This document shows, piece by piece, positions 1 through 59,655 of a stretch of DNA of 64,000 nt. Origin of the DNA: Bolinopsis microptera (lineage: Eukaryota > Ctenophora > Tentaculata > Lobata > Bolinopsidae); contig NC_087076.1 of the NCBI RefSeq assembly GCF_026151205.1, positions 15,832,419 to 15,896,418 of the forward strand, in the 5' to 3' direction. Both the position numbers and the translations under genes were made by a program. The notes below the pieces were generated by a model, which saw only the letters and a program-made list of their open reading frames with translations, ran no database searches and had not been told where the DNA came from. The stretch's first letter is position 1. Each line of letters starts with the position of its first letter.

Positions 1-818
1 GAGGACATGCGGTCTTTGGCATATTTAACAGATTTTCTGTACAGCTTATTAATCATAACCGAATCCTTTAGAGTTAGCTGCACGAGATTCTCTAAAGTAT
101 CAAACACCTCCTCAAAAAGTGCTTCGTTATCGGTGATACATAAAGAGAGGTTTATATTCTGCAGCAGGAATCGGGAGGTTTCATCAAGCACCATTCCTTG
201 CTTCTCTATATTTTGTTTTACAATGTGCAGCAGAGAAGATGGACTGTTTTGAGTAATCTGAATGATACAATTCAGTTGAATAGCATCTAGTCCAACATAG
301 TTCAGCTTCATGTAGGGTTCAACAAATATCTCAGCTCTGTTCTCCAGACCACAAATCTTCTGTACCACCACGTCCACAAACTTGTCACATTTCATCACTC
401 TCATACAAAACCTGGCCTCCTCAAACAAGAACAACAAAGTCTGGTAGTCAGTGTGAACACTAACATCACCCACCAGACCAGTGAAGTAGTCCCAACATCT
501 CCCTGACAACCACTCCACTTTGAAGACGTGACAGAGCTTGTTGACATCTCTGAACAAGTGCCTCACTAGTTGGATCTCCCCGCTGTACAGGGCCCCCAGG
601 AAACTCTTCACCGCCTCCCCCACAAAGTCCTCCATCTCCAGAACAGACTGTTGTAGTTCCAGGAACAGGTGAACAAACACTGAACTGTGGTAAGACAGGA
701 TTAGAGAGTTTGCTTTTATGTCCTCTCCTCCTCGTAACTTTAGGACCACGTTACCGTGAAACTGAGAGTGTAGGTTCTCTATACCAAAATCTGCCGGTAC
801 CACCACTTTAGGAGCCAT
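1..818 (-). CDS. BTB/POZ-BACK family protein, array copy A (partial, C-terminus beyond window)
   Basis: The reading frame is open from the ATG (reverse strand, 816-818) to the window edge, about 272 codons, with no intron. It begins MAPKVVVPADFGIENLHSQF. A BTB fold occupies roughly residues 18-112 (motifs LILSYHSSVF, FLGALYSGEI, LCHVFKVEWL), followed by a helical BACK-like stretch. BTB proteins usually dimerise and often serve as Cullin-3 adaptors; that role is family knowledge, not shown here. The first ~170 residues match copies B-E almost exactly at DNA level. From about position 305 leftwards (after EIFVEPYMK) the sequence diverges sharply from the others (it reads LNYVGLDAIQLN). No frameshift or stop is visible, so this may be a functional paralogue. 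Its C-terminal domain lies outside the window. Confidence 0.85.
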   Translation of the reverse strand, partial: MAPKVVVPADFGIENLHSQFHGNVVLKLRGGEDIKANSLILSYHSSVFVHLFLELQQSVLEMEDFVGEAVKSFLGALYSGEIQLVRHLFRDVNKLCHVFKVEWLSGRCWDYFTGLVGDVSVHTDYQTLLFLFEEARFCMRVMKCDKFVDVVVQKICGLENRAEIFVEPYMKLNYVGLDAIQLNCIIQITQNSPSSLLHIVKQNIEKQGMVLDETSRFLLQNINLSLCITDNEALFEEVFDTLENLVQLTLKDSVMINKLYRKSVKYAKDRMS

Positions 819-1189
819 GATATTCTAGTGGATTGATATTGTTAGTAAACAACACATTTTTGAGCTATTTTATAAAGAAAACGTTTAAGCACAAACTTGA
901 AGAGCTATTGTGCTGTTTAATATCTAATGACAGTTATAATAACATCAATCATTGATGAAAACAAAGAAGATTTGACAAAAAAAAACACTATTGAAAATTA
1001 TTCAATTTTATTTAAACGTATTAGATTCCCTGATATAAATGATTCACAGGGTACGGTGTTTCAAAAGTAGATTGGTATAAAGTGGTAAAGTTATTCAACA
1101 TAAATCGTAATTTCACCTACGAATCTGAGGATCTATAGCCACTCCAAACCAGTGGAATATCTAAAACTCGTAAAAATTGCTCAAAAGAA
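819..1189. other. spacer between BTB copies A and B
   Basis: This non-coding spacer holds the 5' flank of copy A and the 3' flank of copy B. It is closely similar over its whole length to the spacer between copies D and E at 13815-14183, showing that the two gene pairs derive from one duplicated block. No other gene is visible. Confidence 0.7.
1007..1012 (-). terminator. possible poly(A) signal AATAAA for BTB copy B
   Basis: AATAAA on the reverse strand lies about 180 bases after the copy B stop codon. It is conserved at the equivalent place after copy E (13993-13998). It sits in an AT-rich stretch, so the motif alone is weak evidence. Confidence 0.35.
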
Positions 1190-1437
1190 TCACAAAGTTA
1201 TGAACGCAGACAGCTTAAGAAAGTCACCAGGGGATAAGTATACACCACCTACTTTCCATGCTAACATTGATCCCTCATCATATTTTATCACAATACCGAA
1301 CTCATTCCAGGTAAAACTGGCTAAGAAGTATCTCATTCCATGGTCATACTCAAACAAAGGCACCAAATGAATTTTGTCCGCTTTCACAAAGTCAGGATGA
1401 ATATGAAGTCCCTCAGGATATTCTTCTTGATCTAACA
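1190..1437 (-). pseudogene. C-terminal fragment of BTB copy B, cut off by a LINE
   Basis: Reverse-strand translation gives DQEEYPEGLHIHPDFVKADK, then a segment ending LKLSAFITL and a stop at 1190-1192. This is the C-terminal ~80 residues of the family (compare copy C: DQEDYPEGLHIHPEFVKADK and LKLCAFITL). The match stops at about 1437, exactly where reverse-transcriptase sequence starts on the other strand. The missing upstream part of the same gene is at 8035-9449, with a 25-base remnant at 3396-3420. The fragment is therefore the 3' end of a gene split by two insertions, not an independent gene. Confidence 0.85.
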
Positions 1438-2644
1438 ACAATACGGTTTTCGGCCGGGTCGGTCGTGTGAGCATGCGCTCCTTGATGCAACCAACACGAT
1501 TAGACACGACCTCTCCAAAAAAGAGGTCTCTCTACTCCTCCTACTTGATTTTAGCAAAGCGTTTGATGTAATTTCCCACGATATTCTCTTAGACAAACTG
1601 TATCATTATGGCATAAGAGGACTAGCACACCAATGGTTCAAGTCTTATCTAAGTTCCAGGAGTCAGTATGTTTCAATAGGGGGCACAAATTCTTCCTCAC
1701 AGTCCATGAGACACGGAGTGCCGCAAGGCAGTATTCTAGGACCTTTACTTTTCATAATATATATCAATGACATGCCAAAAATCAAATCGTACGCAAAATT
1801 TGTTTTATATGCTGACGACGCAAACATAATTATCTCAGGTAAAAATCATCAAGAAATACTACAAAAGATGACAGAATTTTCACCTTTATTGATAAACTGG
1901 GTAGATCAAAATGGTCTTTCGTTAAACCTTAAGAAAACGTGCTACATGCTCCTCTCACCCAACAGAACCTCAACACCTGACGTAAATATTCAAATTGCAG
2001 GCACCACTATTGAGCGAAAAACTGAGGCCCGATTTCTTGGCGTAATTGTTGACGAAAAATTGACCTGGACCAGTCACATTACTGCTCTTAAAGCGAAAAT
2101 GATGCGGTATATTGGTATTATGTACAAAATAAAAAGTCGGCTGCCGATTAAAGTTAGACTCCAGATATACCAAAGCTTTGTACAGTCTCATATAAACTAT
2201 TGTTCATTGATATGGGGTTTTGCTGCAAAAAGCCATATAGATGCTTTATTCAGCAAACAGAAGCAAGGAATAAGGGCTATTATGCCTGGCTTCGTAAACT
2301 ACTACTTTAAGGAAGGTGCCTTACCACAACACACAAAGCCATTTTTCAGTGAACATGAAATTCTCACTGTGCATGGTCTTATCGTTTACAACACAATTAT
2401 CTTGATGCATAAAGTTAAAAACATGCCACAATTAGTCCCCAAAAACATCTCTCAAGCTTTTCCCGCCGACATACCCACAAAACTTTCTGATCACACGTCA
2501 GCCTGCTCCTGGCTCCAGTTATACGGGAAAAAAACACTTTCAAAACAGTATTTTCTACAAGGGACCACTGCTCTCTGTCTTCGCAGACAAAGCAGACGTT
2601 ACTACACTTCCGACATTATTTTCGATAAATCTGTTCAAGACTAG
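1436..2644 (+). pseudogene. reverse transcriptase fragment of the LINE
   Basis: The frame is open for 402 codons from the truncation point to TAG at 2642-2644. RT landmarks appear in order: YGFRPGRSCEHALLDA, LLLLLDFSKAFDVISHD (motif A aspartate), RHGVPQGSILGPLLF (motif B), FVLYADDANII (the YADD catalytic motif) and FLGVIVDEKLTW (downstream conserved block), then a C-terminal connection region. In an intact element this enzyme copies the element's RNA at a nicked target. The N-terminal endonuclease domain and any ORF1 are missing, so this copy cannot move by itself. The catalytic residues are intact, which suggests a fairly recent insertion. Confidence 0.9.
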
Positions 2645-3395
2645 TGCCAAGAAAATGCTACTTAATCTTCAAAGTGATGGTGATGTTAACGAGTGGCAAC
2701 CATTCCTACTGCACAATGTTCCTGGCCTAAGACAGTCTAGACGTGAAATTTAAACTTTTAACATTTAACCTGAATCGAATTTCAACTGAAACGAATATAA
2801 TCTAAGTTTAAATTAAGTCTATTGTCTAATTAATGGCTTGCAACAGGGAGCAGTATGAAAATCACACAACCCAACACATAGAAACTACACTAAATGACAC
2901 AAATTTAAATAACAACTTGCAATTCCTGACTACCAATATAATAACCGCTCGCATAACTACCCCCACTTAGCGTAGATAAGCAAGCATTTCACTGCCGCTA
3001 AATTCTTTTTCCATACATTAATCTCAATCGCGCACTCATAATTACTGTAAGCGCTGAGTTACCGGCCAAAATCATTAATCACTGATGGTAAAATTTTGCA
3101 CAAAATTTTAAAAACAATAGTCTAAGCTGTTCAGTGCAATTCTAAACTTCTTAACCTATAGGATCGATATTATGGATGTGTAATATCATGTGTTGGTGAA
3201 GCGTTGTGTTTTTAAATCTGTAGTTCATAGTACTTCATGATCACAGTGTACTTTTTGATAAACCGTGTGCAGTGCCCTTTCCAGAGGGTTTTTTTAAAAA
3301 GAATTCTTTAACGTTACTATTTTCTATCTATTACTGTTTGTATTATAATTTTGAGTAAACATTAATCGAGTATACCGCTCGATTCCCAATCAAAT
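1436..3395 (+). mobile_element. 5'-truncated non-LTR retrotransposon (LINE, Jockey/CR1-like)
   Basis: The element begins abruptly inside the reverse-transcriptase domain and continues into a ~750-base 3' region with no further ORF and no poly(A) tail. BTB copy B sequence resumes at 3396. The hexamer ATCTAA occurs at both junctions (about 1430-1435 and 3396-3401) and fits a short target-site duplication. The lack of a 5' end is typical of target-primed insertion. The Jockey/CR1 placement rests on general RT motif resemblance only. Confidence 0.8.
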
Positions 3396-3420
3396 CTAAA
3401 CAAAGGTTTACTTTAAAGTG
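3396..3420 (-). pseudogene. 25-base remnant of BTB copy B between two insertions
   Basis: The bases match the segment encoding FKVNLCLD in copies C and E. This joins the C-terminal fragment (ending at 1437) to the 8035-9449 part. It shows that the LINE and the large repeat-bearing insertion entered the same gene only ~20 bases apart. Confidence 0.75.
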
Positions 3421-3631
3421 ACTAAGGTTTTTTTTTAACATATTTGATAGATTTACAGATCTGGCTTGACAAAAATTTTCAGAAAAAATCATGTTCGCGG
3501 GAAGCAAAAATCCGATGAGTTTTTTAGGGGGAGGGGTAGGGGGTTGAGGGGGGTTGGGAAGGGTTGTCACATGACGAAAAATTTTTTGCAAAAATTAAAC
3601 AATCTTTATTTGTTGATATTATTCACCCCTG

Positions 3632-4120
3632 TTGCCTAGAGTGGTGGGTCTGCACTTGAGAAGAGTGGGTCTGGCCGCTAGAATGGTGGGTCTGCAATCT
3701 AGAAGTGGGTCTGGCAACCAGAATGATGGGTCTGTACCCTTAAAGAGTGGTCTGACAACCAGAGTGGTGGGTGTGCACTTGAGAATAGTGGGTCTGGCAG
3801 CTAGAATGGTGGGTATGCAATCTAGAAGTGGGTCTGTTAACCAGAATTGTGGGTCTACACCCTTGAAGAGTGGGTCTGGCAGCTAGAATGTTGGGTCTGC
3901 AATCTAGAAGTGGGTCTGGCAGTTAGAATGGTGGGTCTGCAATCTAGACGTGGGTCAGGCAACATGAATGGTGGGTCTGCACCCTTCAGGCTTAAAGAGT
4001 GGGTCTGACAACCAGAGTGGTGGGTCTGCACTTGAGAAGAGTGGGTCTGGCAGCTAGAATGTTGGGTCTGCAATCTATAAGTGGGTCTGGCAACCAGAAC
4101 GGTCGGTCTGCAGTCTGCAC
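3632..4120. repeat. GTGGGTCTGG satellite array, block 1
   Basis: Imperfect tandem repetition of two related half-units, 'agagtgggtctggcaaccag' and 'aatggtgggtctgcaatcta', together about 40-50 bases. Reverse-strand frames stay open (reading like GCQTHSSRVQTHHS), which follows from the repeat composition rather than a gene. Confidence 0.9.
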
Positions 4121-4429
4121 CACCCCTGCAGATTTCGTCGATTTCAGGTGCCGTCGGCACCATAAAAATTAAAAGCAAACATAAATTTTTTCCCCTAAAA
4201 TCAAACGCTTTCTGCGCAAAAAATCGACCTCAACAGAAAAAATTAAACATGGCTTCAAATCCAAATTTGAACCAGAGATTTTTCACTTCCTCTCGATAAA
4301 CTTAATTTTCAACCCAAAATAAAGTCTCAAAGGGGTAAATTACTCAGGTCAGGATTGTAGGCAATGATTATGCCAAACCATACATTTTTGTAAATTCATT
4401 AAACTTTCAATTTAGCCTAAAACACCCTA

Positions 4430-4605
4430 TTTCGCAAAATTTTTCCGGGGGGCTGCGCCCCCCTAGCCCCCGCCAATGTGGTCCGCCCCTTACCTGGACC
4501 CCGCTGGGGGCCGCGCCCCCAGACCCCTGCCACAGCTTGCAGCTTCGCTTGCCGACAGCCCCCCCCCCCCCCCCAAAGAAAAATCCTGGCTACGTGCCTG
4601 AGCAA
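4430..4605. repeat. GC-rich hairpin-bearing block
   Basis: A G-run/C-run inverted segment (CCGGGGGGCTGCGCCCCCC) is followed by a second GC-rich part and a C-run at 4559-4574. It resembles one unit of the array at 6240-7790, so the two satellites may come from one element type. Confidence 0.6.
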
Positions 4606-4796
4606 AATATAGGTTAAGGGCTTTTCAGATGATTTGGCTCCTCAACAGATACCGACGTACATAACGGTCAATATGTAGTCTAGGTTTACCTGGCCCGTAG
4701 GTTACGAATGTGCCCGAGGAGGAAAAAAAGCAAACTTAAGAAAATTTCTCGGGAACTTAAAAGTTCACCTCAAAACGAAATCTGCACCTATGGTCT

Positions 4797-6062
4797 GCAC
4801 CCTTAAAGAGTGGGTCTGACAACCAGAGTGGTAAATATGCACTTGAGAAGAGTGGGTCTGGCAGCTGGAATGGTGGGTCTGCAATCTAGAAGTTGGTCTG
4901 GCAACCAGAATGGTGGGTGTACGTACACCCTTGAAGAGTGGGTCTGACAACCCGAGTGGTGGGTCTGGACTTGAGAAGAGTGGGTCTGGCAGCTGGAATG
5001 GTGGGTCTGCAATCTAGAAGTTGGTCTGGCAACCAGAATGGTGGCCGGTGGGTGTACGTACACCCTTGAAGAATGGGTCTGACAACCAGAGTAGTGGGTC
5101 TGGACTTGAGAAGAGAGGGTATGGCAGCTGGAATGGTGGGTCTGCAATCTAGAAGTTGGTCTGGCAACCAGAATGGTGGGTGTACGTACACCCTTGAAGA
5201 GTGAGTCTGACAACCCGAATGGTGGGTCTTCACTCTAGAATAATAGGTCTGGTGGGTCTACACTTTAGAAGAGTGGGTCTGGCAACTAGATTGGTGTGTC
5301 TGCAATCTATAAGAGTGGGTCTGGCAACCAGAATAGTGGGTCTGCACTCTGCAATCAAGGGAATCAAGATGAGTGAGTCTGGCAATCAGAATGGTGGGTC
5401 TGCACCTTAGGGTAGTGGGTCTGGAAACAAGAATGGTGGGTCAGAATTCTTGAATAGTGGGTCTTCACTCTAGCTAAGAGTGGGTCTGGCAACAAGAATG
5501 GTGGGTAAGAATTCTAGAATAGTGGGTCTTCACTCTAGAAGAGTGGGTCTGGCAACCAGAATGGTAAGTCTACACTCTGTCAAGTGTCAACCAGAATTGG
5601 GGGTCTAAACTAGAATATAGGATATATGGCAACCAGAATTGTGCGTCTGGAGTCTAGAGTCTAGAATAGTGGGTCCGGCAACCCGAAAGGTGAGTGTTCA
5701 CTCAAGAATAGTGGGTCTGGCAATCGGAATGGTGCGTCTACACTCTAGAAGAGTGGGGCTGGCAACCAGAATGGTAGGTCTTCGCCTTAGAAGAGTGGGT
5801 CTGGCAACCAGAATGGTGGGTCTGCATTTTAGAATAGTGGGTCTTGACTCTGTACCTACTAGAAGAGTGGGTCTCCTCTCTAGAAGAGTGAATCTGGCAA
5901 CCAGAATGGTAATTCTTCACTCTGTCAACCAGAATTGGGGGTCTATGAACTAGAATATAGGAGATATGACAACCAGAATTGTGGGTCTGGACTCTAGAAT
6001 AGTGGGTCTGGCAACCAAAATGTTGAGTCTGCACTCTAATAGAGTGGGTCTGGCAACTAGAA
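4797..6062. repeat. GTGGGTCTGG satellite array, block 2
   Basis: This is the same satellite as 3632-4120. A higher-order repeat of about 130 bases is visible at 4905-5230, where units share an insert reading 'gtgtacgtacacccttgaag'. Later units are more degenerate. Confidence 0.9.
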
Positions 6063-6239
6063 TGCAGACACGTAGCCAAGGGGAAGACCCCCGGAAAAAA
6101 ATTGAACCCCAAAAAAAATAAGCCCCCTAGTCCCCATGGTCGCCTGGTAAGTGGGCTGTGTTTATGACTGTTTGATTAAACGACACGACAGGCAATCGAC
6201 TTTAGCATTTCGTAAATTATTCCCAAATCCCACTATACA

Positions 6240-7790
6240 ATATGTACTTATTCCATTCAATGTGACAAGTACTGAGTTCCCCCCTAGCCCCCAACTTTGT
6301 ATTATTGTGATGTCTGAAATTACAAATTTCTAATGCCAAATGTCGTCTGAAACACCCTATTTCTCAAAAATTTTCCGGGGGCTGCACCGGGCACCCCCAA
6401 CTTTGTATTATCGCCGTCCTACAAATTTCTTTAATGCCTAATGTCGTCTAAAACAAATAATTTCTAAAAATTTTCTTGGGGGCTGCGCCCCCCCCCAGTC
6501 CCCCAACTTTATATTATTGTGATGTCTGATTATTACTGCGCCCCCCCCCCAGCCCACCAATCTTGTATTATTGTAATGTCTGATTATTGCTGTCTCACAA
6601 ATGTCGTCTGGAACACCCTATTTCTCAAAAATTTTCCGGGGGCTGCACCCCCAACTTTGTATTATCGCCGTCCTACAAATTTCTTTAATGCCTAATGTCG
6701 TCTAAAACAAATAATTTCTAAAAATTTTCTTGGGGGCTGCGCCCCCCCCCAGTCCCCCAACTTTATATTATTGTGATGTCTGATTATTACTGCCCCCCCC
6801 CCAGCCCACCAACCTTGTATTATTGTAATGTCTGATTATTGCTGTCCCACAAATGTCGTCTGGAACACCCTATTTCTCAAAAAGTTTCCGAAGGCCAGGG
6901 CTGCGCCTGCCTAGCCCTCCAACTTTGTATTAATGTGATGTCTGATTATAATTACTGTCCTACAAATTTCTTTAATGTCAAATGTCGTCTAAAACACATA
7001 ATTTCTCAAAAATTTTCTGATTGGCTGCGCCCCCCCCCCTCCCTAGCCAACCAACTTTATATTATTGTGATGTCTCAGGATTATTACTGCCCTACTAATT
7101 TCTTTAATGCCTAATGTCGTCTGAATCACCCTATTTCTCAAAAATTTTCCGGGGGGTGCGCCCCCCTAGCCTCCCAACTTTGTATTATTAGATTATTGTG
7201 ATGTCTGATTATTACTGTCCTACAAATTTCTTTAATGCCAAATGTCGTCTAAAACACATTATTTCTCAAAAATTTTCTGGGGGTTGCGCCCCCCCGGCCC
7301 CCCAACTTTATATTATTGTGATGTCTGATTATTACTATCCCCAAATTTCTTTAATGCCAAATGCCGTTTTAATCACCCTATTTCTCAAAAATTTTCCTGG
7401 GGGTTCGCTCCCCTAGCCCACCAACTTTATATTATTCTGATGTATGATTATTGCTCTCCTACAAATTTCTTTAATGCCAAATGTCGTCTGAATCACCCTA
7501 TTTCTCAAAAATTTTCCGGGGGTTGCGCCCCCCCCCCCCCCCAGCCCACCAACCTTGTATTATTGTAATGTCTGATTATTGCTGTCCTACAAATGTCGTC
7601 TGGAACACCCTATTTCTCAAAAATTTTCCGAAGGCCAGGGCTGCGCCCCCCTAGCCCCCCAACTTTGTATTATTGTGATGTCTGATTATTACTGTCCTAA
7701 AAATTTCTTTAATGCCAAATGTCGTCTAAAACACATAATTTCTCAAAAATTTTCTGGGGGGCTGCGCCTTCCCCCCTCCCTAGCCAACCA
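6240..7790. repeat. ~95-160-bp satellite with G/C hairpins
   Basis: Roughly a dozen tandem units each contain 'tgtattattgtgatgtctga', 'tacaaatttctttaatgcc', 'atttctcaaaaattttc' and a G-run/CTGCG/C-run hairpin. A ~260-base higher-order duplication is visible (about 6345-6600 against 6605-6845). Short ORFs across it are incidental. Confidence 0.9.
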
Positions 7791-8034
7791 AAGGAGCTTC
7801 GCCCCGGCTACGTGTCGTGTCGGGCTACGTGCCGAGAATCGAAAAAACTTAATCTTTAAATGAATAACGGAACCTTCATTATGAAGTTACGAGATGATAA
7901 TATAATTGGGAGGCAAAGTGGGTATCGGGCTTGGGGCTCATAATGCGCAAAATTTGGCCGCTGTCGAGTGGGTCTGCCTAAAATTCACAGATCTAGCTAT
8001 GGGTCTGAGACATTTGTAAAAAAAAAACCTTTAA

Positions 8035-9449
8035 AGTTTAAACTTGTGTGGTTCACCAGACTTCATATCAGGGGTACTTTTTAGAAGGAACCCACATTTT
8101 CCAGGTAAACAACAATCAATCGTGTTAGGGTGTTTGAAATGAAAAGAAAAAGATAGTGGTCTGTAAAACAGATCTCTAACTTTGAACTTATTTACCTTTG
8201 ATATTTTGTTATCAATTCCGACTGTCTTTCCAACCCGTCTCACACTCTCTTCCTTAGACGTAAGATCACAACCGTTTTCTTTTATAATATCAGCCTCTAT
8301 GACATCATTGTCATTCCATAATTCAAGGAATTCTGGTGATAATCGGCTCCATCCTCTCTTGCGACGAATCTGCTCTATTTTATGTACCATATTAGGTGTC
8401 AGCAATACTTTAAAATTGGAATTATCTTTGAATGCCAAAAATCCCTCGATGAGCATGTACAAGTTTCTAACAAGAGGAGACTCTTCTGTCACATCTAGAA
8501 ATTCACGTTTATTAAGTCCTCGAAATGACTTAAATGAACAAAAGATATTCGGAATTTATGTTGAACTTGAGGGAACTACAGAGACAGAGTATACTATATT
8601 TGATAGTCCTGATGAACAGCTTGAAGGCTGGCTTTTCTGTCTTTTCTTGAACTCTTTTACAGACTTCCTGTACAATGTGTTAACAAATAGTGCATCTGTA
8701 TCAGATGATTTCGTTGCACTATCTAAAACATCAAACAGCTCTTCAAAAAGAGCTTCGTCATCAGCAATACATTTACAAAGATCAACATTTTCTAACAGGT
8801 AACGAGAGGCTACATTGAATACTTCTCCCTCATTCTCCAGATTCTTTTTCATTATCTTCAGCAAGAACATTGGATTATCATATTTTGTTATCTGTATCAT
8901 GAGATCCAGTTGACTAGTTTCCAGTTCAGAGTAGTTCCTCATGTAGGGTTCAACAAATATCTCAGCTCTGTTCTCCAGACCACAAATCTTCTGTACCACC
9001 AGGTCCATAAACTTGTCACATTTCATCACTCTCATACAAAACCTGGCCTCCTCAAACAAGAAAAATAAGGTCTGGTAGTCAGTGTGAACACTAACATCAC
9101 CCACCAGACCAGTGAAGTAGTCCCAACATCTCCCTGCTAACCACTCCACTTTGAAGACGTGACAGAGCTTGTTGACATCTCTGAACAAGTGCCTCACTAG
9201 TTGGATCTCCCCGCTGTACAGGGCCCCCAGGAAACTCTTCACCGCCTCCCCCACAAAGTCCTCCATCTCTAGAACAGACTGTTGTAGTTCCAGGAACAGG
9301 TGAACAAACACTGAACTGTGGTAGGATAGGATCAGAGAGTTTGCTTTCATGTCCTCTCCTCCTTGTAACTTTAGGACCACGTTACCATGAAACTGAGAGT
9401 GTAGGTTCTCATTACTAAAATCTGCGGGTACCACCACTTTAGGAGCCAT
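8035..9449 (-). pseudogene. BTB copy B, N-terminal and middle part (nonsense codon, split by insertions)
   Basis: The ATG is at 9447-9449. The first 297 codons match copy C. A TAA then stands at 8556-8558, where copies C and D have GAA (the E of SSSTEIAHIF). The same frame stays open beyond it through RNLYMLIEGFLAF, RRKRGWSRLSPEFLELW and GKCGFLLKSTPDMKSGEPHK. It stops matching at about 8035, where the 4.6-kb insertion begins. The last ~80 codons are displaced to 1190-1437. Two large insertions plus a nonsense codon make this a pseudogene, although a truncated BTB-BACK protein of ~297 residues could still be expressed. Confidence 0.85.
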
Positions 9450-10063
9450 GGTGTTCTAGTGGATTAACATTGTTAGCATCTTTCAAATTAAGTGTTTAAA
9501 ATTAAGAGAAGAAAAAAAAATTATTCTTGACTGAGCTGGGTCGGCTATAAAAGGAATTGATAAACGGTAAGGAAAATTATGAAATTATGAGAGTTATCAT
9601 TACTCCTTTTGTTAATTGGTTCATCACTAAACACGAAGTAACGTACATGTATAAAACGAAGGTAATATTTATAAATATTACCTTCGTGATATAAATATCA
9701 AAAAGTCCAATAACGGGTACACAATTTCTTTTTTAACAATTAGCAAATAAATAAAATTTCGTGAGAAATATTTTATACACGTGATGAGGAAATCAACACT
9801 GATTTAATAGCACGATTATTAGAAAGTAACATTAATGGAATGTAATAACTGAATTTATGAACTTATATGTTCCTCAAACTCAATGATTTATGCAGGCTGT
9901 AAAAAGAGTGCATGAATTAACACATGTCTATTCACGATAGTAGATATAACGTAAATCGTAGGTTTGTCAAAGAATTTTGGAATTAATAACCACTCCACGA
10001 TATAATATTTATATGAAACACGTTGAGTATTTTAATCTCGTAAACTTTCTGTTTCATATTGGA
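9450..10063. other. spacer between BTB copies B and C
   Basis: AT-rich and non-coding apart from the 5' flank of copy B next to its ATG. It holds a perfect 32-base palindrome at 9656-9687. No gene or RNA gene is seen. Confidence 0.6.
9656..9687. repeat. perfect 32-bp palindrome
   Basis: Two 16-base arms (acgaaggtaatattta and its exact complement) meet without a spacer. It lies in the spacer between BTB copies B and C. It could be the relic of a fold-back element or a protein-binding dyad. Confidence 0.9.
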
Positions 10064-11728
10064 TCATAACGTTATGAACGCACACAACTTCAAAGGTGTA
10101 TCTGAGTATATTTTAAAACTGCCGATATCCCAAACTGACAAAGATCCCTCACCTGTCACATTATTTACACCGTAGTCATTCCAAGTGAACATTGCTAAGC
10201 TGTATCTCATCCCAGAGTTGAATTCAATCAAAGGCACCAAATGAATTTTGTCCGCTTTTACAAACTCAGGATGAATATGAAGTCCCTCAGGATAATCTTC
10301 TTGATCAAAACAAAGGTTTACTTTAAACTTGTGTGGTTCACCAGACTTCATATCAGGGGTACATTTTAGAAGGAACCCACATTTTCCAGGTAAACAACAA
10401 TCAATCGTGTTAGGGTGTTTGAAATAGAAAGCAAAAGAGTGTGGTTTGTAAAACAGATCGTTAAGTCTACACTTATTTATCTTTGATATTTTATTATCCA
10501 GCCCGAATGTTTTTCCAACCCTTGGCCTTCTAACACTCTCTTCCTTAGACGTAAGATCAAAACCGTTCTCTTTTATAGTATCAGCCTCTTTGACATCAGC
10601 GTCATGCCACAATTCAAGGAACTCAGGTGATATTCTGCTCCATCCTCTCTTGCGACGAATCTGGTACATTTCATGTACCATATCGGGAGTTATCAACTGA
10701 TAATGACCATTATAACATTTGAAAGCTACAATTACTTCAATCAGCATGTACAAGTTTGATATAAGAGGAGATTCTTTAACAGCATCAAGAAATTCCTGGG
10801 TATTCAGTCCTTCAAACATCTCATACGAACAAAAAATATGAGCAATTTCTGTTGAACTTGAGGGTACTACAGATAAAGAGGAAGACACAGTTGATGAGTT
10901 TGGAGAACTTACAGGTGGTTTTTTCTTGAACTCTCTTACAGATTTTCTGTACAATGTGTTAACAAATAGTGCACATGAATCAGATGATTTAGTTGCACTA
11001 GTATCTAAAACATCAAACAGCTTCTCAAAAAAAGCTTCATCATCAGCAATGCATTTACAAAGATCAATATTTTCTAGCAGGTAACGAGAAGCTGCATTGA
11101 ATACTCCTCCCTCATTCTCCAGATTCTTCTTCATTATCTTCAGCAAGAGCTTAGGATTATGATTGGTGATCTGTATTATAAGATCCAGTTGACTAGTTTC
11201 CAGTTCAGAGTAGTTCTTCATGTAGGGTTCAACAAATATCTCAGCTCTGTTCTCCAGACCACAAATCTTCTGTACCACCAGGTCCACAAACTTGTCACAT
11301 TTCATCACTCTCATACAAAACCTGGCCTCCTCAAACAAGAACAACAAAGTCTGGTAGTCAGTGTGAACACTAACATCACCCACCAGACCAGTGAAGTAGT
11401 CCCAACATCTCCCTGACAACCACTCCACTTTGAAGACGTGACAGAGCTTGTTGACATCTCTGAACAAGTGCCTCACTAGTTGGATCTCCCCGCTGTACAG
11501 GGCCCCCAGGAAACTCTTCACCGCCTCCCCCACAAAGTCCTCCATCTCTAGAACAGACTGTTGTAGTTCCAGGAACAGGTGAACAAACACTGAACTGTGG
11601 TAAGACAGGATCAGAGAGTTTGCTTTCATTTCCTCTCCTCCTTGTAACTTTAGGACCACGTTACCGTGAAACTGAGAGTGTAGGTTCTCTATACCAAAAT
11701 CTGCTGGTACCACCACTTTAGGAGCCAT
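10064..11728 (-). CDS. BTB/POZ-BACK family protein, array copy C (intact, 554 aa)
   Basis: This is the only complete, undamaged member of the array: a single exon of 554 codons with ATG at 11726-11728. The BTB domain covers roughly residues 18-112 (FHGNVVLKL, LILSYHSSVFVHLF, FLGALYSGEIQ, LCHVFKVEWL). A helical BACK-like region runs to about 245. A Ser/Pro-rich linker (about 275-300) follows, then a ~250-residue C-terminal module with GKCGFLLKCTPDMKSGEPHK, DQEDYPEGLHIHPEFVKADK and a final LKLCAFITL. I do not recognise that module. BTB-BACK proteins with a C-terminal binding module are commonly Cullin-3 substrate adaptors, so substrate recognition by the tail is an inference. Lack of introns beside intron-bearing neighbours suggests origin by retroposition followed by tandem duplication. 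Confidence 0.9.
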   Translation of the reverse strand: MAPKVVVPADFGIENLHSQFHGNVVLKLQGGEEMKANSLILSYHSSVFVHLFLELQQSVLEMEDFVGEAVKSFLGALYSGEIQLVRHLFRDVNKLCHVFKVEWLSGRCWDYFTGLVGDVSVHTDYQTLLFLFEEARFCMRVMKCDKFVDLVVQKICGLENRAEIFVEPYMKNYSELETSQLDLIIQITNHNPKLLLKIMKKNLENEGGVFNAASRYLLENIDLCKCIADDEAFFEKLFDVLDTSATKSSDSCALFVNTLYRKSVREFKKKPPVSSPNSSTVSSSLSVVPSSSTEIAHIFCSYEMFEGLNTQEFLDAVKESPLISNLYMLIEVIVAFKCYNGHYQLITPDMVHEMYQIRRKRGWSRISPEFLELWHDADVKEADTIKENGFDLTSKEESVRRPRVGKTFGLDNKISKINKCRLNDLFYKPHSFAFYFKHPNTIDCCLPGKCGFLLKCTPDMKSGEPHKFKVNLCFDQEDYPEGLHIHPEFVKADKIHLVPLIEFNSGMRYSLAMFTWNDYGVNNVTGEGSLSVWDIGSFKIYSDTPLKLCAFITL

Positions 11729-12057
11729 GGTGTTCTAGTAGATTAACATTGTTAGTAACCTTAACATTTTTGAGCTATTTTTTAGAAACATTCTGTAATT
11801 ATTTGTACATCACTTTTAAAAGTAAGATAAAATTATGGGGTTTCAATGGGGTTTCAATACTTGAATGCAATGACAAAGGTCAGCGCTTATGAGTAATTGT
11901 ATTGCACAAGCGATTTTCAATCGCGCGTACTGGAAAATGAGCTAGGGTGAATGCACATAAACTGTAGACTCAACAGACATAATTAGGTTACTACATTTTC
12001 AAGAGATCATAACAAAAATTATCAAAAATTACAAATAGAAATGAAACACAATACAAA
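11729..12057. other. spacer between BTB copies C and D
   Basis: AT-rich and non-coding. The ~30 bases next to the copy C ATG (gtgttctagtagattaacatt) are shared with other copies and probably belong to the conserved 5' leader or promoter. Nothing else is seen. Confidence 0.55.
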
Positions 12058-13814
12058 TTATGCGATAACGCAATCTCTGTTATTAGTTGGTGCAATTACG
12101 CAATCTCCAGAACTAGCTGGCGGGTCTGATATTGTGATGAAAGCGATCAACTTCAAACTAGTTACACACTGTATGTTGGCGTTACCTAATTGAAAATGTA
12201 GGGAATTAAAAAAAGAACCATACAGTTCGTAAAAAGCCGGCTGAAAAATGTCGCGTATACCAAACTCATTCCACGTAAAACTGGCTAAGCAATATGAGTA
12301 TTCCGACTCGCTAACTGTTTTAAGCATGGGAACCAAATGAAGTCTCTCCGCTTTCACAAACTCTGGATGAATATGAAGTCCCTCGGGATATTCTCTTTGG
12401 TCATAACAAATGTTTACTTTAAACTTGTGTGGTTTATTAAACTTCAAAATAGGCGTGCTTTTCAGTAGGAACCCACACTTTCCAGGTAGATTACAATCAG
12501 TAGTGTCAGGATGTTTGAAATGATAAGCAAAGGATTGAGGGTAAGAAAACAGGTCTGAAATTGTACAGACACTATTATTTGATAACTTATAGTCTGTTCC
12601 AACTATCTTCCCAACTCTCCTGACACTCTCCTCTTGAGAAATAAGATCTTGGCTGTTTTCCTTAATATTATCAGCCACTTTGACATCAAAATCAAGCCAC
12701 GATGCCAGGAATTCAGGTGATATTCTGCTCCATCTCTCTTGCGACGAATCTCCTCTATTTTATGTACCATATCGGGAGTCATTAACTGAGCATGACCATT
12801 ACAATATGTAAAAGCTACAATTGCTTCAATCAGCATGTACAGGTTTAATATAAGAGGAGATGTTTTTACTGCCTCAAGAAATTCCTTGTCACTAAACTCA
12901 CGAAAATACTCAAATGAACAAAAGATATGAGCAATTTCTGATGATTTTGAGGGACTTAATTGGATAGCGGGAACTGAAGTTGATGGGTCAGGGAAACTTA
13001 CAGGTGGTCTTTTCTTGAGCTCTCTCACAGACTTTCTGTACAATGTGTTAACAAATAGTGCATCTGAATCAGATGATTTAGTTGCACTATCTAAAACATC
13101 AAACAGCTCCTCAAAGAAAGCTTCATCATCAGCAATGCATTTACAAAGATCAATATTTTCTAGCAGGTAACGAGAAGATTTATTGAATATTCCTCCCTCA
13201 TCCTCCAGACTATTTTTCATTATTTTCAGTAAGAACATTGGATTATTATTGGTGATCTGTATCATTGTGTCCATTTGACTAGTTTCCAGTTCAGTGTAGT
13301 TCTTCATGTAGGGTTCAACAAATATCTCAGCTCTGTTCTCCAGACCACAAATCTTCTGTACCACCAGGTCCACAAACTTGTCACATTTCATCACTCTCAT
13401 ACAAAACCTGGCCTCCTCAAACAAGAACAACAAAGTTTGGTAGTCAGTGTGAACACTAACATCACCCACCAGACCAGTGAAGTAGTCCCAACATCTCCCT
13501 GCTAACCACTCTACTTTGAAGACGTGACAGAGCTTGTTGACATCTCTGAACAAGTGCCTCACTAGTTGGATCTCCCCGCTGTACAGGGCCCCCAGGAAAC
13601 TCTTCACCGCCTCCCCCACAAAGTCCTCCATCTCCAGAACAGACTGTTGTAGTTCCAGGAACAGGTGAACAAACACTAAACTGTGGTAAGATAGGATCAG
13701 AGAGTTTGCTTTCATGTCCTCTCCTCCTTGTAACTTTAGGACCACGTTACCGTGAAACTGAGAGTGTAGGTTCTCTATACCAAAATCTGCTGGTACCACC
13801 ACTTTAGGAGCCAT
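12058..13814 (-). pseudogene. BTB copy D, one-base frameshift
   Basis: The ATG is at 13812-13814. The first ~360 codons match copy C closely through EEIRRKR. There copy D lacks one C found in copies B and C (near 12734, 'catctctctt' against 'catcctctctt'). The original frame then runs on with unrelated residues to 12603. The true C-terminal module continues in the next frame from about 12678 to 12058 and is intact (GKCGFLLKSTPILKFNKPHK, DQREYPEGLHIHPEFVKAER). Its very end is longer than in other copies (ITISDPPASSGDCVIAPTNN). A single-base difference could also be a sequencing error. If so, this is a functional gene with a distinct tail. Confidence 0.8.
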
Positions 13815-14183
13815 TCTATAACTCTATTAGATTAATATTGTTAGTACCGTAAACAACACATTTTTGAACTATTTTATAGAGAAAACTTTTAAGCACAAAC
13901 TTTAGGAGCCATTGTGCTGTTTAATATTTAAAGACAGTTATTGATGAAAACAAAGAAGATTTGACAGAAAAACATTATTGAAATTATTCAATTTTATTTA
14001 AACGTATTTGATTCCCCGATATAAATGATTCACAGGCTCACAGGGTACGTTGTTTCAAAAGTAGATTGGTATAAAGTGGTAAAGTAATTCAACATAAATC
14101 GTAACTTCTCCTACGAATTTAGGGATCTATAGCCACTCCAAACCCGTGGAATATCTAAAACTCGTAAAATTTGCTGAAACGAA
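13815..14183. other. spacer between BTB copies D and E
   Basis: Homologous to the A-B spacer at 819-1189 along nearly its full length, including the leader next to the ATG, 'gatataaatgattcacagg' and the AATAAA (reverse strand) at 13993-13998. No gene is present. Confidence 0.7.
13993..13998 (-). terminator. possible poly(A) signal AATAAA for BTB copy E
   Basis: Reverse-strand AATAAA about 190 bases past the copy E stop, conserved with the one at 1007-1012. Confidence 0.35.
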
Positions 14184-15846
14184 TCACAAAGTTATGAACG
14201 CAGACAGCTTAAAATAGTTATCAGGGAATATGTATGCATCACCTACTACCCATTTTAATGATGATCCCTCATCATCATTTATCACCTCACTTATACCAAA
14301 CTCATTCCAGGTGAAAGTGGCTAAGCAGTATCTCATTCCAGAGTCGATTCAAACAAAGGCACCAAATGAATTTTGTCCGCTTTCACAAACTCAGGATGAA
14401 TATGAAGTCCCTCAGGATATACTTCTTGATCTAAACAAAGGCTTACTTTAAACTTGTGTGGTTCACCAGACTTCATATCAGGGGTACATTTTAGAAGGAA
14501 CCCACATTTTCCAGGTAAACAACAATCAATCGTGTTAGGGTGTTTGAAATGAAAAGCAAAAGATAGTGGTCTGTAAAACAGATCTCTAACTTTGCACTTA
14601 TTTACCTTTGATATTTTATTATCCATCCCGACTGTCTTTCCAACCCTTCGAACACTCTCTTCCTTAGACGTAAGATCGCAACCGTTTTCTTTTATAATAT
14701 TAGCCTCTTCGACATCAATGTCATGCCAAAATTCAAGGAATTCAGGTGATATTCTGCTCCATCCTCTCTTGCGACCGAATCTGCTCTATTTTATGTACCA
14801 TATTAGGTGTCAGCAATACTTCAAAATTGGAATTATATTGGAATGCAAAAAATCCCTCGATGAGCATGTACAAGTTTCTAACAAGAGGAGACTCTCCAGT
14901 CACATCTAGAAATTCACGTTCATTAAGTCCTCGAAATGATCGAATGAACAAAAGATATTCGGAATTTCTGCTGCACTTGAGGAACTACAGTGACAGAGTA
15001 TGCTACATTTGATAGTCCTGATGAACAACTTGAAGGCTGTCTTTTCTTGAGTTCTCTTACAGATTTCCTGTACAATGTGTTAACAAATAGTGCATCAGAA
15101 TCAGATGATTTAGTTGCACTATCTAAAACATCAAACAGATCCTCAAAAAGAGCTTCATCATCAGCAATGCATTTACAAAGATCAATATTTTCCAGCAGAT
15201 AACGAGAAGCTTCATTGAATACTCCTCCTTCATTCTCCAGATTCTTCTTCATTATTTTCAGCAAGAACATTGGATTACTTAATGTAATCTGCAACATTAA
15301 ATCTAGTTGGCTAGTTTCTAGTTCAGTGTAGTTCTTCATGTAGGGTTCAACAAATATCTCAGCTCTGTTCTCCAGACCACAAATCTTCTGTACCACCAGG
15401 TCCACAAACTTGTCACATTTCATCACTCTCATACAAAACCTGGCCTCCTCAAACAAGAACAACAAAGTCTGGTAGTCAGTGTGAACACTAACATCACCCA
15501 CCAGACCAGTGAAGTAGTCCCAACATCTCCCTGACAACCACTCCACTTTGAAGACGTGACAGAGCTTGTTGACATCTCTGAACAAGTGCCTCACTAGTTG
15601 GATCTCCCCGCTGTACAGGGCCCCCAGGAAACTCTTCACCGCCTCCCCCACAAAGTCCTCCATCTCCAGAACAGACTGTTGTAGTTCCAGGAACAGGTGA
15701 ACAAACACTGAACTGTGGTAAGACAGGATCAGAGAGTTTGCTTTCATGTCCTCTCCTCCTTGTAACTTTAGGACCACGTTACCGTGAAACTGAGAGTGTA
15801 GGTTCTCTATACCAAAATCTGCTGGTACCACCACTTTAGGAGCCAT
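14184..15846 (-). pseudogene. BTB copy E, three frameshifts
   Basis: The ATG is at 15844-15846. About 290 codons match copies B and C (MAPKVVVPADFGIENLHSQF onwards). Three single-base indels follow relative to copies B and C: a loss near 14938-14943 (before FCSF), an extra C near 14775 ('gcgaccgaatc'), and a loss near 14341-14349 (after HLVPLFES). The pieces between stay recognisable (RNLYMLIEGFFAF, GKCGFLLKCTPDMKSGEPHK, LKLSAFITL, stop at 14184-14186). Downstream sequence and spacer match copy B, so E and B are closest relatives. Confidence 0.85.
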
Positions 15847-16332
15847 TTCTGTTCTAGTGGATTAACATTGTTAGCCTTTCATACAATTTTATGAAACTAT
15901 TTTCAATGAACATTAGAGTCAATATTCTGTATAGTATTAAGAGCCAAAGTATACCATCACTTGAAGATTTAAAACGTTAAGTTGGCTGAGTTATGCCAAA
16001 CGAATAAAATCAAATTAATTTATAATTTGAGGTCGTAAGGTACAGAAATGTATCTTCACTAAAAAGATAAATTATTAGTGTGATTTGAAGAGATATTAAA
16101 ACTTGAACCACTTAGAAACGTAGAGCGTTATAATAAAACAATACAGAATGTATACAGCATGGTGGAATCTTCAAATAGAGACAACAGTGAATGAATGTCA
16201 ATGTTCTTCGCTTGATTGCATGGGTGGCTCATTAATAAGTCATAATAACCTCTTTAACCTCATTTTACCTTAGCTCATTATGAGAGGAAGTTCATATTCA
16301 TAATTACAGTCAATGTGTACTTATATTCTTGA
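15847..16332. other. spacer between BTB copy E and MED6
   Basis: AT-rich and non-coding. It contains the copy E leader and the 3' flank of MED6. The two genes lie head to tail on the minus strand. No additional gene is seen. Confidence 0.5.
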
Positions 16333-19300
16333 TCACCTTTGAGGCTCATCTTTTGTCTCCTGTTTGATGTTTGATTGTTCTGTGACAACTGGCCCAGTGC
16401 GCAGCATAAAATGTTGATACTTCTTAGTTAAAATGTCCATCAGCTTATCAATACTGAAAATAATGTATGTGATCAGTAATTTTAGAAACAGTTCAAGGCA
16501 TATTTGAATAATCAGAAATGAAAGAACATCACGATCAACTGCATCAACGAGATAAAGAGAGAAAATAAATACCTAAAAATCACAATCTACATAACCAATT
16601 ACTACCTTTCCTTTTGGAACTGTGAACAAGGTTCACTTCGTAGCTTCTCCTCCTTTGATGGTTCAGGAGGATCAAATGACCAGTAATGCCCTTTATTAGG
16701 ATCATACCTGAAATTTATTCGAGGTTCTCAAAACGTTGACATAAAGTTTCGTATACATTGATGAAATCAAAGGCTGCATCTCACTGTCAAATGTTCACTT
16801 CTATATTACAATAAATTGCAAAAAAATTGACTCTATGTGTGGAGGTAACTCAATAGAATAGGCAGGATGAGCACTTGTAGGTAGGATTGCACATTCATTA
16901 CTACAAAGGGGGGGGGGGGGGGGGGGGTGTCACGTCCGTCTATGTCCGCCTATGTCCTGTCCTTTTTGGATTCTATGAGACAACGGACGTGTTTTTTGGG
17001 ACATTGGCGGACACGGACGGACATTGGCGGACTCGGACGGACATTGGAATCCTTTTTGGATTCTATGAGACAACGGACGTGTTTTTTGGGACATTGGCGG
17101 ACACGGACGGACATTGGCGGACTCGGACGGAAATTGGCGGACTCGTACTCTGTTTTATAGATCTGGTACATTGTTGGCTCGGAATATTTGTTCAATATAA
17201 CACATACGGGGTGATGAAGTGATCACTGTGGATTAGTCTACCCAGCGGTCTCCAGTAATCTGTCTCTATCGGGTCCTTCAACGTTAAGCTGTTAAGCTGA
17301 TGTTGTCGTTCTATTGTTTATATTATCTCTATAATAGACGAAATAACGTACGCTCATTGGTCAGATATTTAATTGATAAACCAATGGACGCGGCGATCTG
17401 AACAGCGAGTCTCTTAACTTTAGGGGGGGAGGGGGGGTGTCACGTCCGTCTATGTCCGCCTATGTCCTGTCCTTTTTGGATTCTATTCTTTTTCGCAACT
17501 TCTATGTATTATAATTTTGTACAAAACAAAAGACTTATTTATCACACTAAAGCTATTAATAGCTTTAACTTATATCAAATTATATAGGGATCCAGGAAAA
17601 GGCCCCAGGAGGAGGAGGAGGAGGAGGACTGGGGAGGAGGAGGACTGTTGAGGACTGATGAGGAGGACTGAGGACGAGGAAGAGGAGTAGGAGGAGGACT
17701 GAGGAGGGGAGGAGGAAGAGGACTGGGGAGGATCAGGAAGACCCAGGAGGAGGACCCAGGAGGAGGACCCAGGAGGAGGACCTAGGAGGAGGAGGAGAAC
17801 TGAGGAGGATGACTGAGGAGGAGAAGGACTCAGGAGGAGGACTCAGGAGGACTGAGAAGGAGGAGGACTGAGGAGGATGGCTGAGGAGGATGGCTGAGGA
17901 GGATGACTGATAGGGAGGAGGAGGAGGAAGAGGAGGAAGAGGACTGAGGAGGAGGAGGGGAAGGACCCAGGAGGAGAAGGAGGACCCAGGAGGAGAAGGA
18001 GGACCCAGGAGGAGGACCCAGGAAAAGGCCCCAGGAGGAGGAGGAGGACCTAGGAGGAGGAGGAGAACTGAGGAGGATGACTGAGGAGGAGAAGGACTCA
18101 GGAGGAGGACTCAGGAGGACTGAGAAGGAGGAGGACTGAGGAGGATGGCTGAGGAGGATGGCTGAGGAGGATGACTGATAGGGAGGAGGAGGAGGAAGAG
18201 GAGGAAGAGGACTGAGGAGGAGGAGGGGAAGGACCCAGGAGGAGAAGGAGGACCCAGGAGGAGAAGGAGGACCCAGGAGGAGGACCCAGGAAAAGGCCCC
18301 AGGAGGAGGAGGAGGACTGGGGAGGAGGAGGACTGAGGAGGACTGAGGAGGAGGACTGACGATGACTGAGAAGGAGGAGTACTGAGGAGTACTGAGGAGG
18401 ATGGCTGAGGAGGATGGCTGAGGAGGATGACTGAGGAGGATGACTGAGAGGGAGGAGGAGAAGAACTCAGGAGGAGGACTCAGGAGGAAGAGGAGGAGGA
18501 GGGGAGGAGGAAGAGGACTGGGGAGGATCAGGAAGACCCAGGAGGAGGACCCAGTAGGAGGAGGAGGAGGAGGACCCAGGAGGAGGAGGAGGACTGAGGA
18601 GGACTGAGGAGGAGGACTGACGATGACTGAGAAGGAGGAGTACTGAGGAGTACTGAGGAGGATGGCTGAGGAGGATGGCTGAGGAGGATGACTGAGGAGG
18701 ATGACTGAGAGGGAGGAGGAGAAGAACTCAGGAGGAGGACTCAGGAGGAAGAGGAGGAGGAGGACTCAGGAGGAGGACTTAGGAGAAATGAGAAGGAGGA
18801 CTGAGGAGAACTGAGGCGGAGGAGGAGAAGGACTGAATAGGAGGAGAAGGAGGGGGACTGGGAGAGGACTGAGGAGGAGGAGGACTGATGAGAAGGATGA
18901 GGAGGAGGACTGAGGAGGAGGACTGAGGACCGAGGAGGAAGAGGAGGATGAAGAGGAGGAGGAGGACCCAGGAGGAGGAGGACTGAGGAGGACTGAGTAG
19001 GATGGCTGAGGAGGATGATTGAGAGGGAAGAGGAGGAGGACTGAGGAGGAGGAGGAAGACTGAATAGGAGGAGGAGGGGGACTAGGGGAGGACTGAGGAG
19101 GAGGATGGAGGACTGAGGAGAAGGATGAGGAGGAGGACTGAGGTGGACTGAGGAGGACTGAGAAGGAGGAGGACTGAGGAGGAGGACTGGGGAGGAGGAG
19201 GACTGTTGAGGACTGATGAGGAGGACTGAGGACGAGGAAGAGGAGTAGGAGGAGGACTGAGGAGGGGAGGAGGAAGAGGACTGGGGAGGATCAGGAAGAC

Positions 19301-58018: not shown

Positions 58019-58369
58019 CGTTATGTAGCAATTTCCCACATTTCCTGGATCTCCTCATTACGGTCCACACTAACTATCTCATATCTGACGGACTCGCTTT
58101 ACTTCAGAGCTGCTATTGTCAGGATTGGTTTGCCCGGCAGAGTTTAGTTTATCCTAATCGTTTCACTAAACCTGGAGTTGCAACGCTTGATCGCCCTATA
58201 GAAATAAATGTAAAGCCCATATATATTGAGCTTGACTGTGGAATGAATTGAACGGTTTTAATTTTATCATATTATTTGTTAATCATATTACAGTTTGTAT
58301 TATAGTTGTAAGAATCATTGCTATTGTGCTGCATTGTGCTGCATTGCACAAGACATTGCCCAATAACTG

Positions 58370-59218
<849 letters not shown>

Positions 59219-59655
59219 TTACTCAATTAGTATTATACCGTGTATACACTGTATAATGATTACACAGTACTAGGTGATCCTTTTGGTTCTATTTACAGTA
59301 TAGTGATTGTTGGGTGGTTACATCATATGGTTAACTGATCAACAATTATCCAGCGTGGTTGCACGTTTTGCAAATTGTAACCAAAATGGTACAGAAATGG
59401 CATTTCCACTTCGGGTGTGATGAAAAACTTGGTTTTCCTCCCACGCGACCTTCTGCAGGAATCCGTATTAGCTGCGAAAAACTCTACTGTTTCAATTACA
59501 TCAGAGTTGCTAATTGGTATCTGAATATTTGAACCTAGCTCTCTTTGAGATCTCCTTAGCTCACTCTTGTTACTATAACATACCTGTCTTGAGGTCTACT
59601 CAGTCAGATCTCATTACTTACTTCTCAGTACACACTTGTGTCACCACTAGTGACT

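Follow-up and report, generated by a model that had tools for sequence, protein, structure and literature searches.

Regional gene conversion is itself already known. In the excerpts of the report on the clustered protocadherins of fugu used here (PMC1852091), tandem paralogs share one part of an exon at >99% identity and the other part at 57-80%, with a discrete boundary that includes silent sites and with a raised GC content at third codon positions (GC3) in the uniform part. The F-box and BTB-box families of Parachlamydiaceae are large, partly tandem and carry varied C-terminal modules, and the parts of that account drawn on here describe birth-and-death evolution with minor recombination only and no homogenisation (PMC4209131). 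MATH-BTB proteins, in the portion of the source consulted, are adaptors of cullin-3 ligases (PMC6883508). Here we analyse five single-exon BTB genes (A-E) that lie head to tail on the minus strand of a 64,000-nucleotide stretch of the Bolinopsis microptera genome (the window) and that are one array of a large single-exon family in this ctenophore. Five head-to-tail BTB genes with near-identical first ~500 bases had been described in an initial annotation of the window; all are present, and the near-identical coding stretch amounts to 516 bases. Judging from the aligned sequences, this 5' block has very probably been exchanged between the copies. The titles and abstract openings of the papers listed for BTB genes and gene conversion, concerted evolution and tandem or family expansion contained no account of this pattern.

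An identity step that includes silent sites

Identity was measured in 60-base bins from the ATG for all 10 pairs of A-E. From the ATG to +479 (eight bins), it was 93-100% in every pair. In the bin starting at 480, identity was 81-83% for the four pairs that include A, compared to 93-98% for the remaining six, and the A pairs then fell to 57-58% in the 540 bin and to 34-72% in bins 600-1440. Differing C-terminal halves had been reported for the array as a whole; the difference is strongest for A but milder among B-E, where the six pairs dropped less (55-100% in bins 540-1320). The end of identity in A, previously placed near position 305, was confirmed, with divergence from codon 173 on (window position 302).

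The step is also present at silent sites. The median synonymous divergence (dS) between A and B-E was 0.042 for codons 1-170, 2.65 for codons 171-230, where two of the four pairs were saturated and set to 3, and 1.18 for codons 231-270. A change-point analysis on codons encoding the same residue located the step after codon 172 in all four A pairs (0 of 500 shuffles each). Between A and C, 3 of 161 same-residue codons differed silently up to codon 172 and 82 of 152 after it, and a run of 18 identical silent sites spanned codons 69-172 (0 of 2000 shuffles). For the six pairs among B-E, the change points were at codons 175-182. The initial annotation had named silent sites as the means of separating exchange from constraint alone; these sites have diverged much less in the N-terminal part than in the rest, and the exchange reading survives. 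Since the median dS in the block is 0.36 between the array on contig C5 (A-E) and the other 15 copies of the family, its silent sites are free to change. Near-identical silent sites in the block, which covers BTB and the stretch following it, together with divergence in the rest of the gene that nears saturation in A, argue that the block was exchanged and that the rest escaped exchange.

Trees were built for the N- and C-terminal parts with 10 other BTB genes as the outgroup. The five C5 copies grouped together in the N-terminal tree (support 98/96), and a position of A outside them was rejected (approximately unbiased (AU) test, p 0.022). The C-terminal tree placed A outside the C5 clade (support 82/67). 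GC3 was 0.62 in the block compared to 0.33 in the C-terminus in all 13 family genes. The first lesions of the seven broken family copies all lie beyond codon 220; uniform placement would leave codons 1-172 of seven broken copies free of lesions with a probability of about 0.07, which is a hint only. As the broken copies hold the same block, they probably take part in the exchange.

Related copies and arrays in the genome

A search of the genome with 500 bases of the constant block returned 32 places, comprising the 5 in the window (97-100%), 15 elsewhere (86-88% over the full 500 bases) and 12 weak partial matches (E 1.1e-17 or weaker) that were not counted as copies. Some of these weak matches lie at genes of the other arrays compared below. 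Ten of the 15 outside copies are at C3:20.4 Mb, two at C3:7.65 Mb and one each on C7, C10 and C13. Open frames of at least 540 codons were found in 13 of the 20 copies, one of which (C3_20404) ends out of register; three of the five copies in the window and seven of the 20 in the family are broken. To the dS estimates, broken copies contributed only their first 275 codons (205 in the case of C3_20401), and they were omitted from codons 290-554. The C7 copy (L018, 613 codons) has ~60 extra linker residues after about codon 290 that resemble an internal repeat of the preceding stretch.

Between group-2 copies on different contigs, the block had a median dS of 0.08-0.11 and the C-terminal part a dS of 0.37-0.44. 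The 8 intact genes of the C3:20.4 Mb array form 28 pairs, 19 of which had 0 of 200 shuffles; the change point was at codon 183-234 in 24 of the 28, at codon 9 in three and at codon 366 in one. At C3:4.06 Mb (three copies), the proportion of differing synonymous sites (pS) was 0-0.07 to alignment column 160 and 0.53-0.95 beyond it, and at C2:7.35 Mb (four copies) a silent-site step was observed near columns 60 and 240. L033 and L039, whose frames lack a start, were omitted from the comparison of other arrays. At C10:12.56 Mb, all six neighbours matched the query at 91-93% up to base 848-882 and beyond that in one 91-base piece only; the frame of this query is open only to about base 1260. Together, these comparisons support an extension of the putative 5'-block exchange to several arrays, though not to all of those looked at.

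Over their first 161 bases, two BTB fragments on C8 (4011246-4011406 and 4016988-4017148) are 95-96% identical to another gene of this contig, at a distance of 11 Mb; past these bases, identity is 65-71%. With the whole protein C as the query, at least 54 further places were found, which are 27-34% identical and have open frames 495-643 codons long; the interior of the match is free of stops in 51 and contains one in 3.

Flanks, C-terminal half and layout of the array

Upstream of the ATG, A-E are mostly unalignable, so that the block starts abruptly as well. In all three groups aligned with their flanks, identity begins at the ATG and the upstream DNA is largely unrelated. The exceptions are A-D, at 86% across 699 aligned columns of which 60 are coding, L032-L035, at 95-98% across most of 600 bases, and some pairs of the C3 array. 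L035 and L032 share this 5' flank and then differ past about base 190 of the gene.

Directly before the ATG, a branch-point-like CTAAY followed by YAG, an acceptor-like motif, was found in 20 of 20 copies, compared to 15 of 1382 control ATGs in window positions 20001-64000 and 10 of 1045 in the family flanks. Because the copies are related, they are not independent cases, and the count of 20 reflects shared ancestry and conservation. Less uniform versions of the motif are present in genes of the other arrays. A leader-like sequence that ends in AATTTGAG and is followed by GTA had 411 matches in the genome at up to three mismatches, and the reversed control had 0. Among the places listed, many of these matches are in units of about 591 and 859 bases. 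Tandem leader-like arrays were seen, for example, at C3:13511055-13533413 and C5:21341875-21348625. According to the parts of PMC8527503 that we consulted, the ctenophore spliced leader is multicopy and ends in AATTTGAG before a GT donor. The leader-like sequence found here has the same end and is likewise multicopy. The BTB mRNAs may be trans-spliced to such a leader, with the acceptor only a few bases upstream of the ATG.

Domain content was examined in a superfamily alignment (A2) of 17 of the 23 listed frames, scanned against Pfam at E up to 1. BTB was matched in all 17 members (35.2 bits in gene C and 36.2 in gene A; curated cut-off 20.5). Kelch, BACK and MATH are absent from the six Pfam families matched by any of the 17. 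The 'BACK-like' label given to the region after BTB was based on position only, and the scan found BACK in none of the 17. From residue ~290 on, the members matched no Pfam family and no PDB entry, and the C-terminal profile matched 0 PDB chains at E up to 10. A likeness of this region to glutathione transferase, seen in four weak PDB chains (E 0.17-0.25), was judged to be due to chance. The full profile had only BTB proteins as PDB kin, such as KBTBD4, IVNS1ABP and SPOP (E 0.01-0.3), a kinship that carries no information on cullin binding. The superfamily members are 25-30% identical to gene C, apart from C450 and H486 (gene C numbering), which are invariant, and C444 and H496, which are conserved in at least 90%; these four residues could form a metal site. 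The variable positions of the 11 intact group-2 genes concentrate in clusters around codons 332-346, 370-384, 500-511 and 520-547. The ratio of nonsynonymous to synonymous proportions (pN/pS) was 0.37 (0.29-0.47) in the framework and 0.91 (0.73-1.16) in the variable clusters.

The ATGs of A-E are at window positions 818, 9449, 11728, 13814 and 15846, spaced by 2.0-2.3 kb once an insert in gene B is subtracted. The reading frame is intact only in A and C among the five copies (Table 1). Matches to C and E showed that the gap between A and B is not a spacer but this insert, which cuts gene B in two. The insert contains a partial reverse transcriptase frame at 1706-2644 on the plus strand (PF00078, 4.1e-14), tandem repeats at about 3600-7800 and a run of A at its right edge. 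Long arrays of short GGA/GAGG-rich repeats were also observed at window positions 17593-20000 and 58248-59273.

Table 1. Coordinates in the window of the BTB genes, their constant blocks and associated features
Feature	Position	Strand	Remark
Gene A, first 272 codons in the window	1..818	-	Open, 556 codons; ends outside the window (L009)
Constant block of A, codons 1-172	303..818	-	Identity to the other copies stops here
Acceptor-like motif (CTAAC ... TAG) before ATG of A	819..845	-	
Gene B, 3' end, separated by the insert	1190..1435	-	Matches 3' ends of C (75%) and E (88%)
Insert of ~6.6 kb splitting gene B	1436..8036	none	Edges uncertain by ~15 bases
Gene B, 5' part	8037..9449	-	In-frame stop at codon 298 (8556-8558)
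Constant block of B	8934..9449	-	Identity bins
Acceptor-like motif before ATG of B	9450..9476	-	
Gene C	10064..11728	-	Open, 554 codons; BTB at residues 20-108
Variable C-terminal region of C, residues 290-554	10067..10861	-	Without Pfam or PDB match
Constant block of C	11213..11728	-	Identity bins, change-point test
Acceptor-like motif before ATG of C	11729..11755	-	
Gene D	12058..13814	-	One frameshift, in C-terminal half
Constant block of D	13299..13814	-	Identity bins
Acceptor-like motif before ATG of D	13815..13844	-	
Gene E	14184..15846	-	At least 3 frameshifts, in C-terminal half
Constant block of E	15331..15846	-	Identity bins
Acceptor-like motif before ATG of E	15847..15874	-	

Competing explanations and known systems

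For data from a single genome, exchange of the 5' block is as well established as it can be. It would take the form of gene conversion, sometimes extending into the 5' flank as in crossing-over, and the rest of the gene would escape it. The exchange is probably confined to an island of homology, because the upstream DNA is mostly unrelated and the C-terminal halves have diverged too far for pairing. The initial annotation had proposed repeated gene conversion. The silent sites bear out exchange, but conversion is not its sole form: the 5' flank travels with the N-terminal block in A and L035, which would also fit crossing-over or a replaced 3' half. Conversion or crossing-over seems to differ from copy to copy. 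BTB proteins commonly act as adaptors, and on this basis the products would be adaptors that act as dimers. Their constant BTB end would contact a shared partner, in all likelihood a ubiquitin ligase of the cullin-3 type. The C-terminal region, in which variable segments cluster within a conserved framework, would bind differing targets, and exchange would keep the partner end uniform without erasing target diversity. By analogy, the adaptor role has about an even chance, and diversified target binding by the C-terminal region is plausible if tentative. To the explanation as a whole, which combines 5'-block exchange, a spliced leader and adaptors with diverse targets, we assign a rough probability of 0.55.

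Several observations weigh against this explanation. The step among B-E is mild, and it was reached by 15, 29, 4, 72, 0 and 0 of 500 shuffles in the six pairs. In a global run test on the 11 intact group-2 genes, one of the ten listed pairs passed (5 of 500) and all the other listed pairs were at 149 of 500 or more. The C-terminal tree does not reject A together with its array mates (AU p 0.25), which keeps a C5 clade possible, and a conflict between the two trees thus has partial support. GC3 of 0.49-0.56 was also found in BTB genes outside these arrays (L056, L057, L058 and L060), and it is low, at 0.22-0.26, in codons 173-270 of the C10 block; GC-biased conversion fits the GC3 of the family but, given these values, is not specific to it. 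The regional step recurs at C3:20.4, C3:4.06, C2:7.35 and C10:12.56 Mb but is absent from the arrays at C8:15.24 Mb (81-88%) and C2:9.84 Mb (89-90%), which are alike over their full length with no gross step, and from the pair L032-L034 at C2:7.35 Mb. The pN/pS of the variable clusters is about 1, not above it, and is no proof of positive selection because the clusters were picked after seeing the data. Two AlphaFold models, made from window-only alignments, had a mean predicted local distance difference test score (pLDDT) of 45.2 each, and the helical stretch following BTB is a low-confidence prediction.

The strongest rival needs no selection on the C-terminal half. Exchange may start preferentially at the 5' ends of the genes and run into the only stretch that can still pair; the 3' half, being beyond the divergence threshold, would be inconvertible, the step would form by itself and the C-terminal diversity would have no adaptive meaning. 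This has a substantial chance of being correct, though short of even. Where flanks were included in the alignment (three groups), the blocks start at the ATG, their ends vary as those of tracts would (codons about 60, 160, 172 and 240, and ~base 850 of the C10 query), the clusters have a pN/pS of about 1, and some arrays lack a gross step. The clusters nevertheless sit on a framework with a pN/pS of 0.37, so that the C-terminal half is under selection of some kind, with which the neutral process itself is still compatible. Alternatively, unequal crossing-over or replacement of the 3' half may have joined a 5' flank and block to an older, unrelated-looking 3' half, as the common flanks of A-D and of L035-L032 would suggest, the latter pair diverging only inside the gene. 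We consider such chimaeras somewhat unlikely, as the blocks are near-identical but the flanks on both sides unrelated between C and E and in most of the C3 array pairs. Moreover, the A-D flank is older than the A-D block (pS about 0.04-0.06), and the block of this pair must therefore have been renewed later.

Purifying selection or codon constraint on the N-terminus alone is hardly credible, even though BTB is the most conserved part between distant members too. Selection of this kind was ruled out by the step at silent sites, which do differ between subfamilies (dS 0.36); the pN/pS of the block (0.27) is no lower than that of the next region (0.25) in the 11 intact group-2 genes; and the broken copies B, D and E retain the block. 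The broken copies would also fit a decaying array without function. This is improbable, given the 13 of 20 copies that are open over at least 540 codons, a pN/pS well below 1 outside the clusters and the 51 of at least 54 further places without a stop inside the match.

Either way, these genes pose the question of whether exchange proceeds from gene 5' ends or selection spares the 3' half. They are a clear natural case of exchange limited to one half of a gene; several arrays of the same genome show it, and silent sites allow it to be dated. Should the C-terminal region bind varied targets, this would be a candidate intracellular recognition family in ctenophores. Such a layout could allow a single common part to be used with many different targets. 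A bolder proposal is that ctenophores hold a large intracellular recognition repertoire (for defence or self/non-self) in which a constant BTB end and an undescribed variable domain are kept diverse and working by 5'-confined exchange that involves intact as well as broken copies, on the same and on different chromosomes; we regard this as speculative and quite unlikely. The word 'BTB' does not occur in the main text of the one ctenophore immune-gene paper searched (PMC11797021). In C. elegans, ubiquitin components act in responses to intracellular parasites, according to the excerpts of PMC4063957 used here, which is a parallel only.

Among described systems, MATH-BTB proteins are likewise an expanded BTB family with a less conserved target-binding part. 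They carry a MATH domain, whereas no MATH was found in the 17 members here, in which BTB is N-terminal and cullin binding is putative. The nematode bath genes are MATH-BTB genes that are reportedly under selection. KLHL proteins have the order BTB-BACK-Kelch, with BTB at the N-terminus. The genes described here share with them the N-terminal BTB and, as predicted at low confidence, the helical stretch after it, but lack BACK and Kelch in the 17 members scanned. Parachlamydiaceae BTB-box families are alike in being large and partly tandem with varied C-termini; the proteins are bacterial effectors with leucine-rich or tetratricopeptide repeats and, in the parts of the account consulted, show no homogenisation, unlike the exchange proposed here. 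As described in the excerpts, the fugu protocadherins are cell-surface receptors in which a 3' exon part is uniform and GC3 is raised in that part, whereas here the 5' part of whole single-exon BTB genes is uniform and raised GC3 is not specific to the block. Both systems nevertheless have the same regional pattern in tandem paralogs, with a discrete identity boundary that holds at silent sites.

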